Origin: Hylemonella sp.
Lineage (GTDB): Bacteria > Pseudomonadota > Gammaproteobacteria > Burkholderiales > Burkholderiaceae_C
Length of the DNA: 64,000 bases
Direction of reading: 5' to 3'
Assembly (NCBI RefSeq): GCF_027532185.1
Contig: NZ_JAPZSV010000006.1
Span: 62,001 to 126,000 of the forward strand
The translations under genes were made by a program, and so were the position numbers. Below, in pieces: positions 15,196 through 21,851 of this stretch. The notes beneath the pieces are model-generated. The model was given only the letters and a program-made list of their open reading frames with translations. It ran no database searches and was not told the origin of the DNA. The first letter of the stretch is position 1. Each line of letters begins with the position of its first letter.

Positions 15196-15562
15196 GTGGA
15201 AGGCGCCCATCCGGGGCGCAGGGATATCGGCCTGTACGGGTGCTGAAAGCGCCCGGCCAGTCAAAGGCAGATAAGGTTCAAGGGTGGGGCCGGTCGGTCC
15301 GCAGACTGCGGCGACGGAACCCCCAGCAGAGATGCTGGTGTTGCGACCAACTGAAGTGCAACGGGTGCGATTGTCTCATGCTTCGGGGCCTCGTGCCGTC
15401 CAGGGCATAAATTGTTCGTGAAACGACTTTTATGTGCCATCTCTGGTCATTTATGTCATACCCGTAAGCAAATGTTGCGCGCGTGTATGCTGTCCGCTCT
15501 GCTGCGGAGAAAATGTAACAAGTAGCCGGGGCCCCGTTTCGGCACAGCATTGTTTTTTCCTC
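15196..15562. promoter_or_regulatory. Divergent intergenic region between rhlE and the first DUF1631 gene
   Basis: This 367-bp gap holds no convincing gene. On the rhlE side there are two compact hairpins: CCGCA-gac-TGCGG (15299-15311) and CCAGCA-gaga-TGCTGG (15323-15338). They could form a structured 5' leader, which DEAD-box helicase genes often have. From about 15405 the sequence becomes noticeably more AT-rich, where promoters for both directions probably lie, but I could not define -35/-10 pairs with confidence. A T-run (15553-15558) precedes the DUF1631 start and no strong ribosome site is visible. Confidence 0.45.
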
Positions 15563-17860
15563 ATGAAGAAGTTCCTCTCGCGACGTCTGGGTGTGTCGGA
15601 TGATCCGACAGCCGAGAAGCCATCCCTGCATGACTGCATCGAGGCGGTGCTGGAGCAGTCCGGCCCGCTGATGGACGACGTGATCAAGGGGCTGGACCTG
15701 GCCTTGCACCAGGTCGGAGGCAAGGTCTCGAAGGTGAACCAGCGGGCCCTGAGCCAGCCCATCGTCGAGGAACTGCGGCGCCAAGCCGAAGCCGTGCGCG
15801 CCACCTTCGGCGTGCAGCTGCGTCTGGCCATCTACCGCAGCGGCAGCCACGCGAGTGACCCCGAGGCGCTGGTGCGCTTCGACGACATCCAGCTGCTCGA
15901 TGAAGGCCAGCTTGAGGCCAATATCGAATTCGCGCTCGCGCAGCAGGAAATCCAGTTCGCCACCGACGAGGTGATCTCGCCGCTCAATGCCCTCATCAGC
16001 AGCCTCATGGGCTGGATGTCGGTGCAGGCCCACCTCAACCCGCTGCGGCCTGAGACCTTTGCGCGCGCGCTGCGCGAGACCCTGCTGCAGCACGTGCCCA
16101 GCGAGCAGGCACGCACCGCGCTGATCACGCCGGCCGCTGGCATCCTGGGCAACAGCCTGCGCGCGCTTTACAAGGAGCTGGCCGACTGGCTGCGTTCCCA
16201 GGGCATCGAGCCGGTCGTGCCGCTGCTGACGGCCTCGGGCGCCGATGCTAGCGGCCGGCCGGTCGAGAGCCCCGTGACCCGCACCATGCTCACGCTGGAC
16301 AAGCTGCGCAAGCTGCTGACCACCGAGATCGAGCTCGGCGGAGGCGCGCACAAGGGCAAGGACTTTCTGCACACGGTGCCGGCTTCGATGGTGGCGATTG
16401 AAGACCTGAAGATGGTCGAGCCCATGATCAAGCGCCTCAGCGAACGCGCCCTCAAGGACGCCAAGGTCGCGGCCAAAGGCAAGAGCGGCAATATGAACCG
16501 CGAGCTCGGCCAGCAACTGGGCGAGGAGGTGGTGCGCCTGATGCTGGAGAACCTGGGCAAGGACCAGCGCCTGCTGCTGCCGGTACGCGCCCAGGTCAAG
16601 GAACTGGAGCCCTTGCTACTGAAGCTGGCGCAGAGCGACCCGCGTTTTTTCAGCGACAAGCGTCATCCGGCGCGCCAGTTCCTGGACCGCATCACGCACC
16701 AGAGCCTGGGCTACAAGACTGAGAACGACGAGCGCTTCCAGCGCTTCCTCAAGATGGTTACCTCAGCGGTGCTCGAACTGCTGGGCAGCGACGGCCACCC
16801 CGAGTCCTTTGCCCGGGCGCTGACCATGCTCGATGCCCAGTGGGCACGCGTGGATCTGGAGCTCAAGGCCAGGCAGGATGATGCGGCGCGTGCCCTCATG
16901 CATGCCGAGCAGCGCAATCTGCTGGCGCAGCGTCTGGCTGCCGATTTCCAGGAGCGCATGCGCGATAAGAAGCTCCCGGAGTTCATCCAGGCCTTTCTGA
17001 GTGGGCCCTGGCCCCAGGTGGTGGCCGAATCACAGCTGCGGGCCCATGGCGCCGACGACGCTGACGGCTACCTGGCGCTGGTCGACGATCTGCTCTGGAG
17101 CGCACAGGCCAAGCTGGCGCGGCGTAACCGCGCGCGCCTGGTGCAACTGGTACCCAATCTGCTGGTGAAGCTGCGCCAGGGCTTGCAGCTCATCGAATAC
17201 CCGCCCGAGCGCATCCCGCGTTTCCTCGACGATCTCATCGCCCTGCACGAGAAGGCTTTCGAGCCGCCCAAGGTCAAGCCACCCCAAGCCGAGCTGGCGC
17301 CGATGACGCCCCCGGCCAAGCCCCTGCAGCCCGGGGTGGTCCCCGAGGAGCTGGGCGGGCCGGTCGAAGGCCTGGAGGTCACGGAGCTGGCAGGCATACC
17401 CGACGAGCTACCCGAGGAGTTCTCCCAGGACCCGGGGGAGGAGAGCACAGGCTATGGCGTGATCGAGGCGGGCGACGCGGACCAGATCTGGATGGCTGGC
17501 CACGAGGCCGACGAGGCTGGCTACCTGCCCGAAGGGGATGTGATGCCCTCCGAAGGCGCGACCGGCGCCCCCTTGTCGAATGCCTGGAACGCAGCCGACC
17601 TGGCCATCGGCTGCTGGGTCGAGCTGCAGCTCAAGGGGGAGTGGGTGCGGGCCCAGCTGACCTGGGCCAGCCCGCATCGCACGCTCTTCATGTTCATCTC
17701 GGGCAAGGGGCTGGCGCATTCCATGTCACGCCGTACCATGGAACAGCTGCGCACGCGTGGCCTGATGCGCGTCGTGTCCGAGCGCCACATGGTCGACAAC
17801 GCCCTGGACGCCGTGGCTCAGGCTGCCTTGCTCAACGAGCGCAAGCCGCCCAAATCCTGA
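15563..17860 (+). CDS. DUF1631 family protein, copy 1
   Basis: A 765-residue, mostly helical, probably cytoplasmic protein of unknown function. The region FFSDKRHPARQFLDRITHQSL and the C-terminal block GCWVELQLKGEWVRAQLTWASPHRTLFMFIS with HSMSRRTMEQL are shared with the second copy at 19.7 kb. The C-terminal ~100 residues look like a small beta-barrel, somewhat PilZ-like, but the RxxxR and D/NxSxxG cyclic-di-GMP motifs are missing. An acidic, proline-rich linker (about residues 570-670) joins the two parts. The ATG at 15563 starts the conserved MKKFLSRRLGV. DUF1631 genes are widespread in proteobacteria with no established role. Confidence 0.88.
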   Translation: MKKFLSRRLGVSDDPTAEKPSLHDCIEAVLEQSGPLMDDVIKGLDLALHQVGGKVSKVNQRALSQPIVEELRRQAEAVRATFGVQLRLAIYRSGSHASDPEALVRFDDIQLLDEGQLEANIEFALAQQEIQFATDEVISPLNALISSLMGWMSVQAHLNPLRPETFARALRETLLQHVPSEQARTALITPAAGILGNSLRALYKELADWLRSQGIEPVVPLLTASGADASGRPVESPVTRTMLTLDKLRKLLTTEIELGGGAHKGKDFLHTVPASMVAIEDLKMVEPMIKRLSERALKDAKVAAKGKSGNMNRELGQQLGEEVVRLMLENLGKDQRLLLPVRAQVKELEPLLLKLAQSDPRFFSDKRHPARQFLDRITHQSLGYKTENDERFQRFLKMVTSAVLELLGSDGHPESFARALTMLDAQWARVDLELKARQDDAARALMHAEQRNLLAQRLAADFQERMRDKKLPEFIQAFLSGPWPQVVAESQLRAHGADDADGYLALVDDLLWSAQAKLARRNRARLVQLVPNLLVKLRQGLQLIEYPPERIPRFLDDLIALHEKAFEPPKVKPPQAELAPMTPPAKPLQPGVVPEELGGPVEGLEVTELAGIPDELPEEFSQDPGEESTGYGVIEAGDADQIWMAGHEADEAGYLPEGDVMPSEGATGAPLSNAWNAADLAIGCWVELQLKGEWVRAQLTWASPHRTLFMFISGKGLAHSMSRRTMEQLRTRGLMRVVSERHMVDNALDAVAQAALLNERKPPKS

Positions 17861-17886
17861 GCCGGGGCCTTGGCGGGCCGTCGGGC

Positions 17887-17895
17887 TGGGATAAT
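17887..17895 (+). promoter_or_regulatory. Candidate extended -10 promoter for the ettA leader
   Basis: TGGGATAAT contains an extended -10 (TGn) followed by GATAAT, one mismatch from TATAAT. No good -35 sits at 17 bp; a TTGGCG lies 14 bp upstream. Transcription would begin around 17902, giving a short leader before the upstream reading frame at 17927. Confidence 0.4.
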
Positions 17896-17926
17896 GCGGC
17901 TTTTACCCCCGCAGAATTCACCGCTC

Positions 17927-18003
17927 ATGGCCCAATACGTTTTAGCGAAACAACTGCCCGCCTACGGCGGCCTCCCGTCCCTACTGTCCGGGAGGGCCAT
18001 GTA

Positions 18004-18004
<1 letters not shown>
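17927..18004 (+). CDS. Upstream leader peptide of ettA (25 codons)
   Basis: A short reading frame begins ATG GCC CAA TAC GTT, encoding MAQYV, the same first five residues as EttA itself (ATG GCG CAG TAC GTT). The first 17 bases of the two frames match except for two synonymous third positions. It runs 25 codons and its TAA (18002-18004) overlaps the ettA ATG as TAATG, in a different frame. The 3' half of the frame contains the two hairpins described next. A ribosome finishing here could open the hairpin and restart on ettA. No clear Shine-Dalgarno precedes it. That it is translated is inference; the sequence match and the stop-start overlap are seen directly. Confidence 0.6.
17958..17995 (+). 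promoter_or_regulatory. Tandem hairpins that hold the ettA Shine-Dalgarno
   Basis: Hairpin 1 is CCGCC-tac-GGCGG (17958-17970). Hairpin 2 follows directly: CCTCCCG (17971-17977), an 11-nt loop, and CGGGAGG (17989-17995). The strong ribosome site GGAGG (17991-17995), 8 bases before the ettA ATG, is the 3' arm of hairpin 2. In addition GGGCCAT (17994-18000) is complementary to ATGGCCC at the start of the upstream frame, and GCCAT pairs with ATGGC of the ettA start across three bases. Several mutually exclusive pairings are thus possible, as in translational attenuators. Confidence 0.6.
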
Positions 18005-19665
<1,661 letters not shown>

Positions 19666-19703
19666 GAGCCGCCTGACATTTGGAGAACCGGCAGGAGCAA
19701 CCC

Positions 19704-21851
19704 ATGAGTTCACGCCCAGCGCCCGTTACACGCACGCCCCAGATCGACGGCCTGATCCGCGAGGCGGCGCGGCAGGGCGTGGACATCATGGAAAACCTGC
19801 TGCGTCAGTCGCGAGAAGCCCTGCAGCGGCAGATCGACCAGTCGCGCGATGTCATGGCGCGCGACGACCGGGCCCGGGCGGTGTCGGCGCTGGTGCAGTC
19901 GGCGCCCGAGCTGCGCGCGCGTTTCCCCGAAGTGCTGAAGCAGGCCTTCGAGCGTGATCTCGACGATAGCCCGGGCACCACCATCATCGATGCAGGGCCG
20001 TCCAGCATCAAGTTCGAGCAGCTCGAGCTCATGGACGAGCGCGAGGTGCAGATGCGCATCAGCGCCGTGCGCGGCCTGCAGCAGGCCATGTTGGAGACCG
20101 AACATGAGCTGGCCGAGCTCAACACCCTGGTCAGCGCCATCCTGGGTTTCGATCAGGTCCGTCCCGAGCGCAACCCCTTCCGCCCGGAAGTCTTCGTCGA
20201 TGCCCTGCAGAACCTGATCAACGGCATGCAAGGAGACGCGGCCGCGCAGACCCAGTGCCGCCAGATCATGGTGCCCCTGCTGGGGAAGTGTCTGCGCGCG
20301 GTTTACAAGGATCTGCTGGCTTACCTCAGGAAGCAGCAGGTGCAGCCTGTGCGCTATGTGATCCAGCGAGGTGCAGCCGCTCCAGCGGCTGGCCCTGCCA
20401 TGGCGGGGCGCCCCGTGGCTACCGGTGGGGCGACCATGGCCGTCGCTTCGAGCTGGCCTCAGGCACAGGGAGCGGGCCTGGCACAGCAGGTTTATGCAGG
20501 CCAGCTCACGGTGCAGCAATTGCACGGCCTGATCTCCGGGACCCAGCAGGACGCGACCCAGCTGGTTCAGGAGGTGGTTGGTCTGTTCCTGCGCAACATC
20601 ACGGGGGACAGCCACTTGCTGTCTCCTGTGCGTGAGCTGATTGCGGGGCTGGAGCCGGCGCTGCTGCAGCTGGCCCGCGTCGACTTGCATTTCTTCAGCG
20701 ACAAGAAGCACCCCGCGCGCGTGCTGCTGGAGGAAATCGCCCAGCACAGCTTCGCCTACGACAGCGAACGTGCTGAAGGCTTCGCCGAGTTCATGGATGC
20801 GCTGGAACTGCCGTTACGCTCCATCACCCCCACGACGGCCACCGCGGAGACCTTTGCTCTGGTGCTGGCGCAGCTGCGGCAGGAGTGGGACGAGGCCGAG
20901 GGGCGGCGCGAAGCCCAGCAGCAGGCGGCCGTCCAGGCCCTGCAGCAGGCTGAGCGACGCAATGAGCTGGCGCGGCAGATTGCCGAGCACATCCGCAAGC
21001 AGCCCGGGACAGTGCTGGTGCCTGACGTGGTGGTCGACTTTGCCTGCGGCCCCTGGGCCCAGGTCATGGCCCAGGCGCAGATGGAGGGCAAGGTCGACCA
21101 GCCAGGTGAGCCTGACTACGTCGCCCTGCTGGAAGACCTGTTCTGGAGCGTACGGCCTGATCAGACGCGTCAGCAGCCGGGCCAGCTGGTCAAGGTGATT
21201 CCCCAGCTGATACAGGGCCTGCGCCAGGGGCTGGAGCGTATACATTTTCCGCAGGCTCAGGCAGAGCAGTTCTTCAGCCAGCTCTTTGCCCTGCATCAGG
21301 GCGGTATGGAGGGCATGAGTTCGGCCCGCAGCCTGCGGGCTGCGGCCCGGCCCGCTGCAAGTACGTGGCTGGCCCCGGAGGAAGCCCGCGATTCAGGCTT
21401 CATGGACGATCTCGGCAGTGCCGAGGCGGGCGGCGGCGACTTTGCAGCCACCGTCCCCGCTGATTTCCCGTCCGAGTTTCCCGCCACCGTTCCCATGGGG
21501 CTAGTGGACCGTTCGTCGGCCACCGATCAGGCACCGCTGGAGTTCATGACACGTGCCGAGCTCACGCTCGAACAGCTCAAGCCCGGCAGCTGGATCGAGC
21601 TGCAGGTCAGCGGGCAGTGGGCGCGGCTGCAGCTGGTCTGGCTCAGTGACAACGCCAGCCTCTGCCTTTTCTCCAGCAGCAGCGGTGCCAACCATTCGAT
21701 GACGCGGCGCATGTTCGACCGCCTTGTGGCCCAGGACCAGCTGCGGTTGGTGTCGCAGGGTCCCGTGGTCGACCGCGCTTTCGATGCCGTGGCCGAACTG
21801 GCCATGCGCAACAGCGTTTACATGGATATCCAGGCCGACCCGCAACCCTGA
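19704..21851 (+). CDS. DUF1631 family protein, copy 2
   Basis: A 715-residue paralogue of the protein encoded at 15563. Shared blocks include ERNPFRPEVFVDALQNLI (compare NPLRPETFARALRETLL), VDLHFFSDKKHPARVLLEEI and the C-terminal GSWIELQVSGQWARLQLVWLSDNASLCLF with NHSMTRRMFDRL. The middle has a long Ala/Gln-rich helical stretch. Function is unknown. A GGAG site precedes the ATG at 19704, which is 38 bases after ettA, so it is probably in the ettA transcript. It converges on the TAXI gene with 5 bases between stops, within the perfect palindrome CTGAGCGGCTCAG. Confidence 0.88.
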   Translation: MSSRPAPVTRTPQIDGLIREAARQGVDIMENLLRQSREALQRQIDQSRDVMARDDRARAVSALVQSAPELRARFPEVLKQAFERDLDDSPGTTIIDAGPSSIKFEQLELMDEREVQMRISAVRGLQQAMLETEHELAELNTLVSAILGFDQVRPERNPFRPEVFVDALQNLINGMQGDAAAQTQCRQIMVPLLGKCLRAVYKDLLAYLRKQQVQPVRYVIQRGAAAPAAGPAMAGRPVATGGATMAVASSWPQAQGAGLAQQVYAGQLTVQQLHGLISGTQQDATQLVQEVVGLFLRNITGDSHLLSPVRELIAGLEPALLQLARVDLHFFSDKKHPARVLLEEIAQHSFAYDSERAEGFAEFMDALELPLRSITPTTATAETFALVLAQLRQEWDEAEGRREAQQQAAVQALQQAERRNELARQIAEHIRKQPGTVLVPDVVVDFACGPWAQVMAQAQMEGKVDQPGEPDYVALLEDLFWSVRPDQTRQQPGQLVKVIPQLIQGLRQGLERIHFPQAQAEQFFSQLFALHQGGMEGMSSARSLRAAARPAASTWLAPEEARDSGFMDDLGSAEAGGGDFAATVPADFPSEFPATVPMGLVDRSSATDQAPLEFMTRAELTLEQLKPGSWIELQVSGQWARLQLVWLSDNASLCLFSSSSGANHSMTRRMFDRLVAQDQLRLVSQGPVVDRAFDAVAELAMRNSVYMDIQADPQP

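Follow-up and report, generated by a model that had tools for sequence, protein, structure and literature searches.

Upstream open reading frames (uORFs) that end on the start codon of the gene behind them, and that carry the Shine-Dalgarno sequence (SD) of that gene in a hairpin, are a known kind of arrangement, in which the two frames are translationally coupled, or bicistronic. The acidic residues on which EttA acts in E. coli lie near the start. One E. coli leader peptide, MgtL of mgtA, is tied to EttA biology: in the part of PMC11282234 drawn on here, acidic residues are what EttA acts on, MgtL contains such a motif (EPDP) and works on mgtA by way of a Rho-dependent terminator, and an RpoS-annotated promoter and salt induction are mentioned for E. 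coli ettA. The ABC-F gene msrD is preceded by the leader MsrDL, where drug-induced stalling is combined with an intrinsic terminator (PMC10314930, in part), and the ermCL-type translational attenuator joins a leader ORF to a structure that sequesters the SD (PMC10219788, in part). Control of EttA, a non-resistance ABC-F factor, seems to have been little studied.

In the 64-kb stretch of DNA analysed here (the window), ettA is preceded by a leader ORF that shares features with these systems. As in coupled leader ORFs, the first frame is short, terminates on the start codon of the next and encloses a stem with the SD of that next frame; unlike them, the ettA leader begins with the former start of the gene, is a precise indel with a copy number of 0, 1 or 2, and is complementary to codons 2-6 of the main gene. 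As with MsrDL and other ABC-F leaders, a leader peptide precedes the gene of an ABC-F ribosome factor; in contrast to msrDL, the ettA leader has 25 codons and an SD hairpin, a simple scan gives no terminator, and EttA is no resistance factor. The SD-sequestering structure recalls ermCL, but the overlap of the leader stop with the main start means that the site should be opened by completing the leader rather than by stalling inside it. Unlike MgtL, the leader lies before ettA itself and in 14 of 15 cases encodes no acidic residue. We consider it likely (probability about 0.7) that this patchily distributed, structured leader-ORF cassette of about 77 bp makes translation of ettA depend on translation of the leader. 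Searches of open-access literature, at the level of titles and the beginnings of abstracts, gave no ettA leader, and the word EttA is absent from the main text of the uORF4u paper. As far as these sources go, four things are new: the gene concerned, the origin of a uORF in the start of the very gene that it precedes, a copy number that varies precisely between 0, 1 and 2, and the correspondence to synonymous codons of ettA.

The elements read directly at the locus, numbered from the first base of the window, are:

17890..17895, + strand: -10-like GATAAT upstream of the leader (sequence reading; same place in close congeners)
17927..18004, + strand: leader ORF of 25 codons plus TAA, its stop overlapping the ettA start codon (sequence reading)
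17927..17943, + strand: leader start (MAQYV, copy 1 of a 17-nt repeat), formerly that of ettA in the genus; position and flank are those of the ettA start in congeners G012, G017 and G013
17990..17995, + strand: SD of ettA, GGGAGG, 8 nt before the ATG (sequence reading; GGAGG is 17991-17995)
18004..19665, + strand: ettA, energy-dependent translational throttle protein (NF008775, 989 bits, cut-off 599; TIGR03719, 962 bits, cut-off 806.75)

The leader ORF translates as MAQYVLAKQLPAYGGLPSLLSGRAM and runs from the ATG at 17927 to a TAA at 18002-18004, which shares one base with the ettA ATG (18004-18006) in a TAATG junction. The first-pass annotation of this DNA had described this overlap, together with an upstream MAQYV frame that differs from the ettA start by synonymous changes only, and both are borne out: the 17 bases at 17927-17943 and 18004-18020 have two mismatches, each of them synonymous. 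The 14-nt pattern ATGGCNCARTAYGT has just two occurrences in the 64-kb window, one at the leader start and one at the ettA start, against a chance expectation of 0.01. Upstream, GATAAT is a candidate -10 element, from which a transcript would start about 25 nt before the leader ATG; we only infer this promoter role, since a strict sigma-70 scan of 17780-18030 gave no site. A consensus terminator scan of the + strand of 17780-18030 gave no terminator-like site between leader and ettA, and the sole Rfam match in 17600-18200 was CDKN2B-AS_2 (E 4.1), far under its gathering score.

The genus of the window (code g1) accounts for the repeated start. Of 26 genomes searched, three gave paralogue-level matches only, and the ettA start was read at 23 loci; 22 are leaderless and the window alone has a leader. 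In its closest congeners, G012, G017 and G013, the ettA start stands at the position of the window's leader start behind an almost identical 5' flank, so that the window's leader begins at what is normally the ettA start in this genus. Against such leaderless loci the additional DNA aligns as a single indel:

17944..18020, + strand: 77-bp cassette, an indel relative to leaderless congeners; its ends can shift within the repeat (pairwise alignments G298/G814, G000/G017 and others)

The clearest view comes from another genus, where G298 and G814 are identical at 236 of 240 aligned bases (flank plus 5' end of ettA) and are separated by a 77-bp gap. On these alignments, a 77-bp insertion after codon 5 of ettA supplies the second start. 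The MAQYV repeat is explained by this position of the cassette: it is the seam of the indel, and peptide mimicry was rejected as its cause. A target-site duplication was also rejected. The downstream start has GCG or GCT in all 16 leader genomes, whereas 58 of 75 leaderless starts have GCC, and it therefore came with the cassette. A gene's start can thus become a uORF in a single step, and apparent peptide mimicry can be a recombination seam combined with RNA pairing.

The leader recurs in other genera of the family. When 399 evenly drawn genomes of the family were searched with a pattern of two MAQYV-type starts, six of them, from 6 of 141 genera, had the leader at ettA; the reversed pattern, as control, gave 0. 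An independent SD-TAATG-ettA pattern matched exactly in five of the 399 genomes and newly added G118; 13 of its 18 matches carried two mismatches and are mostly chance, because the reversed control gave 8, and none of the four that were read lay at ettA. With the covariance model R1 and reading, 94 ettA starts in seven genera were divided into 16 with the leader, 3 decayed relics and 75 without. Leaders per ettA starts were, by genus code, 1/23 (g1), 4/14 (g103), 4/15 (g12), 4/38 (g85), 1/1 (g67), 1/2 (g115) and 1/1 (g94); 16 of 94 is no prevalence, because the six genera beyond g1 were picked for holding a match. One of the 16, G808, has a contig that ends inside the leader and was excluded from the alignment, leader-codon and folding counts. 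In the relics G810 (L203), G819 (L235) and G830 (L233) the leader start codon is lost and the SD stem is gone; ettA of G819 and G830 has the leaderless-type codons GCC CAG TAC GTC. R1 also matched weakly in G854 and at one more site, the third, in G091. R1 matches of about 33 nt were, where read, leaderless ettA starts. Over 399 genomes of the order, the window's genome was the only R1 match, under filters so strict that this is weak evidence of absence.

G091, which a BLAST search of the family missed and the double-start pattern found, has two leaders in series. Its tandem leader ORFs (L134/L197, minus strand) each end in TAACCATG, and they could form two gates in series, the first acting on the second and the second on ettA. 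The leader was found in none of 80 named relatives, a set that partly overlaps the genus genomes (for example L054 with G002, L063 with G007). By a simple pattern, the ettA starts of 75 of these 80 (L052-L131) have no SD, and therefore ettA initiation in the family may be largely SD-independent. Two g1 records, Hylemonella gracilis ATCC 19624 and Curvibacter sp. PAE-UM, have ettA bodies identical to those of G002 and G007, respectively.

The presence of the leader at only 1 of 23 genus loci would suit a chance resemblance or an assembly artefact. Recurrence refutes that reading, to which we give next to no weight: in 16 genomes from seven genera, the single-contig G849 and G860 among them, this element occupies the corresponding position.

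The pattern of substitutions indicates that the leader is kept as an ORF across these relatives. Its stop lies at most 2 nt from the ettA ATG in 14 of 15 full, ettA-adjacent leaders, through TAATG, TGAATG or TAACCATG, the exception being G849. Leaders are 25 or 27 codons long (26 in the outer G091 copy), the differences are whole codons, and length changes preserve the frame in 14 of 15. Near the end of the leader, a G run differs by one base between G849 (L167) and G860 (L166); in G849 this removes the leader stop at the ettA start, and it is either a real change or a sequencing error. Over 13 leaders of 25 codons (G139 excluded for its length and G849 for its frame), pN/pS is 0.59 in frame 0, and 0.90 and 1.19 in the other two frames. 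Codons 2-5 have a pN/pS of 0.16 with free synonymous change, a low value that may date from their time as ettA start. Synonymous sites are most constrained in codons 6-12 (pS 0.169 vs 0.615 and 0.424), as is expected if the RNA is constrained there. A K.LPA core is largely kept in most leaders, and the core peptide varies. Of 16 aligned leader copies, four no longer read MAQYV: G118 and the first of the two G091 copies have MAQH, G824 has MAHH and G403 has MSQY. Acidic residues are absent from 14 of 15 leader peptides.

These peptides bear on the model that came with the first-pass annotation, in which early elongation on MAQYV, dependent on EttA and on ATP/ADP, sets ettA translation through the same layout. 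There are precedents in E. coli EttA, which controls synthesis of the MgtL leader peptide (PMC11282234, in part), and in MsrD, which represses its own expression via MsrDL (PMC10314930, in part). The layout does fit a translation-dependent opening of ettA. The part in which EttA reads a mimic of its own N-terminus is not supported: MAQYV is a cassette seam common to the old ettA start and is altered in the four copies above, the peptides are almost all devoid of acidic residues, and 75 of the 94 ettA starts have no leader at all. Control by the EttA protein itself is thus possible but unsupported, and we regard it as very unlikely.

The RNA elements of the window's leader are as follows:

17947..17957, + strand: anti-start segment GAAAC-A-ACTGC, which can pair with ettA codons 2-6 at 18009-18020 (RNAalifold)
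17958..17970, + strand: hairpin 1, CCGCC-TAC-GGCGG, stems 17958-17962/17966-17970 (predicted fold)
17971..17995, + strand: hairpin 2, CCTCCCG...CGGGAGG, stems 17971-17977/17989-17995, sequestering the ettA SD (fold and covariation)
17996..18008, + strand: short helix 3, GCC (17996-17998)/GGC (18006-18008) around AUGUAAUG (fold, RNAalifold; 93.6% of cells paired)

The two adjacent hairpins, the second holding the ettA SD, had been pointed out in the first-pass annotation and are present both in the sequence and in the predicted fold of the window leader (z -2.18; 5 of 200 shuffles fold as well), where the predicted unpaired probability of the SD is 0.00 and 0.01. RNAalifold over eight leader copies adds helix 3 and a long-range helix between the anti-start segment and ettA codons 2-6, of which the window's own predicted fold has only part. 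A further proposed pairing, between GGGCCAT upstream of ettA and ATGGCCC at the leader start, exists as a complementarity in the window but lies outside the predicted fold, and 4 of 16 leader copies retain GGGCCAT; the pairing was dropped. On the minus strand, hairpin 1 and the anti-start segment give a terminator-like hairpin with a T-rich tail at 17958-17970, which is probably incidental.

Comparison of the 16 leader copies showed that this structure is conserved. The four helices are paired in 89.5% of cells, against 38-51% in slid controls. The SD hairpin has changes on both sides in 6 of 7 pairs, amounting to 12 double-change cells; none of 500 shuffles scored as high and slid controls gave 1-5 cells. 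Frame, stop-start overlap and SD hairpin, which the earlier annotation had proposed to look for in relatives, therefore all recur in other genera, with a hairpin that covaries. Of 15 leaders, 11 retain GGAGG itself (G091, G831, G849 and G860 are without it). In hairpin 1, two sequences have G-C in place of C-G at one pair. Pairing in the long-range helix reaches 91%, with a single double change (G831) and a covariation no higher than in shuffles. Compared with synonymous recodings of the leader, occlusion of the SD was higher in 8 of 15 only, and hence no stronger than in recodings, and total fold energy was weaker in 14 of 15. Codons 2-6 of ettA were more occluded than with recoded leaders in 12 of 15 (mean z -1.68), and their mean unpaired probability is 0.32 in the 15 leader genomes vs 0.56 in the 75 leaderless ones. 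The SD-hiding hairpin sits inside the leader ORF, where translation of the leader would be expected to melt it.

The anti-start segment is matched to the ettA start that accompanies it. In the window this duplex has a predicted energy of -12.6 kcal/mol with its own ettA start, vs a mean of -5.3 with the 22 leaderless starts of its congeners. For 14 of 15 leader genomes, at most 7% of the 75 leaderless ettA starts pair as well as the genome's own start; for G824 it is 29%. The match can be seen in the synonymous codons of ettA, where CAG together with GTT occurs in 14 of 16 starts with the leader vs 1 of 75 without. Over 12 phylogenetically independent pairs, CAG+GTT goes with the leader in 10.8 and against it in 1.0 on average (median p 0.006). 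GTT alone gives 9.4 with and 0 against, and CAG alone 4.0 with and 1.0 against, which is not significant (median p 0.375). The cleanest link is the avoidance of GCC (11.3 with, 0 against), a switch that pairing explains only partly. G831 alone among the leader genomes encodes Gln3 of ettA by CAA, and its leader has a compensating U in place of C (AUUG:CAAU). The match may reflect selection for pairing, or hitch-hiking of the cassette's own ettA start; the latter could produce the codon link because the cassette brings that start with it.

These features lead us to the following model for the coupling. The old ettA initiation site, comprising the promoter side, the untranslated region and the first five codons, would drive the 25-codon leader ORF, and the cassette supplies the anti-start segment, the small hairpin, the SD-hiding hairpin, a strong SD, the stop and the new ettA start. 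When the leader is untranslated, the ettA site would be closed by the SD hairpin, and probably also by the helix between the leader and codons 2-6. A ribosome translating the leader would melt the structure and terminate at TAATG on the ettA start, and this ribosome, or a following one, could then start ettA. As translation would both open the site and end on the ettA start, ettA output should depend on completing the leader. The old, mostly SD-less initiation site would then set the rate, which coupling would hand on to ettA. In proposing this we infer translation of the leader, a role of the closed state in the cell, and regulation of the coupling, by whatever signal.

Two further explanations share parts of this evidence. 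In a stalling attenuator of the ermCL/msrDL type, the layout would be the same and a drug or metabolite would stall a ribosome in the leader, freeing ettA. Resistance ABC-F genes use such leaders (PMC10314930 and PMC10219788, each in part), the leader start, anti-start segment and ettA start could pair alternatively, and the K.LPA core is largely kept. However, EttA is by family (NF008775) not a resistance ABC-F, the simple scan gives no + strand terminator and the core peptide varies. In addition, the ettA start is a stronger partner for the anti-start than the leader start is, in each of the 15 leaders, although the two are almost equal in G091. We judge stalling control quite unlikely. The cassette may also be a tolerated insertion without a regulatory role, in which selection keeps only the new SD, start and stop so that EttA is made. 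Its patchy presence fits this, as do the three relics, a near-identical sister without the cassette and the four of 15 leaders that lack GGAGG. Three features would be superfluous in a pure patch: the stem that hides the SD, which double changes have preserved in 6 of 7 pairs, the constraint on synonymous sites of codons 6-12, and the complementarity between the new ettA start and the leader. This makes the tolerated insertion an unlikely account. Coupling through the leader remains our preferred reading.

The history of the cassette was examined on an ettA tree of 110 rows (first 20 codons removed, quick method). The leader requires at least 13 changes, 11 of them forced by starred branches, a number that the tolerated insertion would also accommodate. 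Shuffled labels average 15.2 changes, and the leader is therefore weakly clustered on the tree, where leader-bearing rows often adjoin leaderless ones. Gains only would take 15 events, and one gain followed by losses only would take 26 losses (relics counted as leader, midpoint root); neither is proven. In genus g85, identities of the cassette over 57 nt are at odds with those of ettA: G811/G860 has 0.877 vs 0.825 for G403/G860, and the corresponding ettA identities are 0.784 vs 0.913. This suggests exchange, although 57 nt are not conclusive.

A search of the window's genome gave one match at E <= 0.001, at ettA, and a second match of 36 bases (E 0.217) appeared in the loose search only; R1 gave one match at E <= 0.01. 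No match was found in a plasmid and phage search, nor any exact match of one 25-nt pattern in viral contigs. A general mobile element was rejected, with no strong copy elsewhere in the window's genome and none in plasmids or phages, and an attC-like site, a likeness judged by eye only, was rejected along with it. As a tentative further reading, to which we would give somewhat less than even odds, the cassette may be a seamless, stackable gate of 77 bp. It would enter after codon 5 by recombination between related ettA alleles, turning the host start into a uORF and making the rebuilt start RNA-gated, and could be lost precisely when the two 17-nt starts recombine, or stand in series, as the two copies in G091 do. 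If true, ettA would carry an on/off layer that is reversible and is exchanged horizontally. The coming and going of the cassette among related bacteria suggests a removable translation switch, and since close relatives exist with and without the defined 77-bp element, its effect on EttA level and fitness is cleanly testable.

Two DUF1631 (PF07793) paralogues, at 15434-17860 and 19680-21851, flank ettA on both sides on the same strand; in NCBIfam they give PacR matches only, all below the cut-off.
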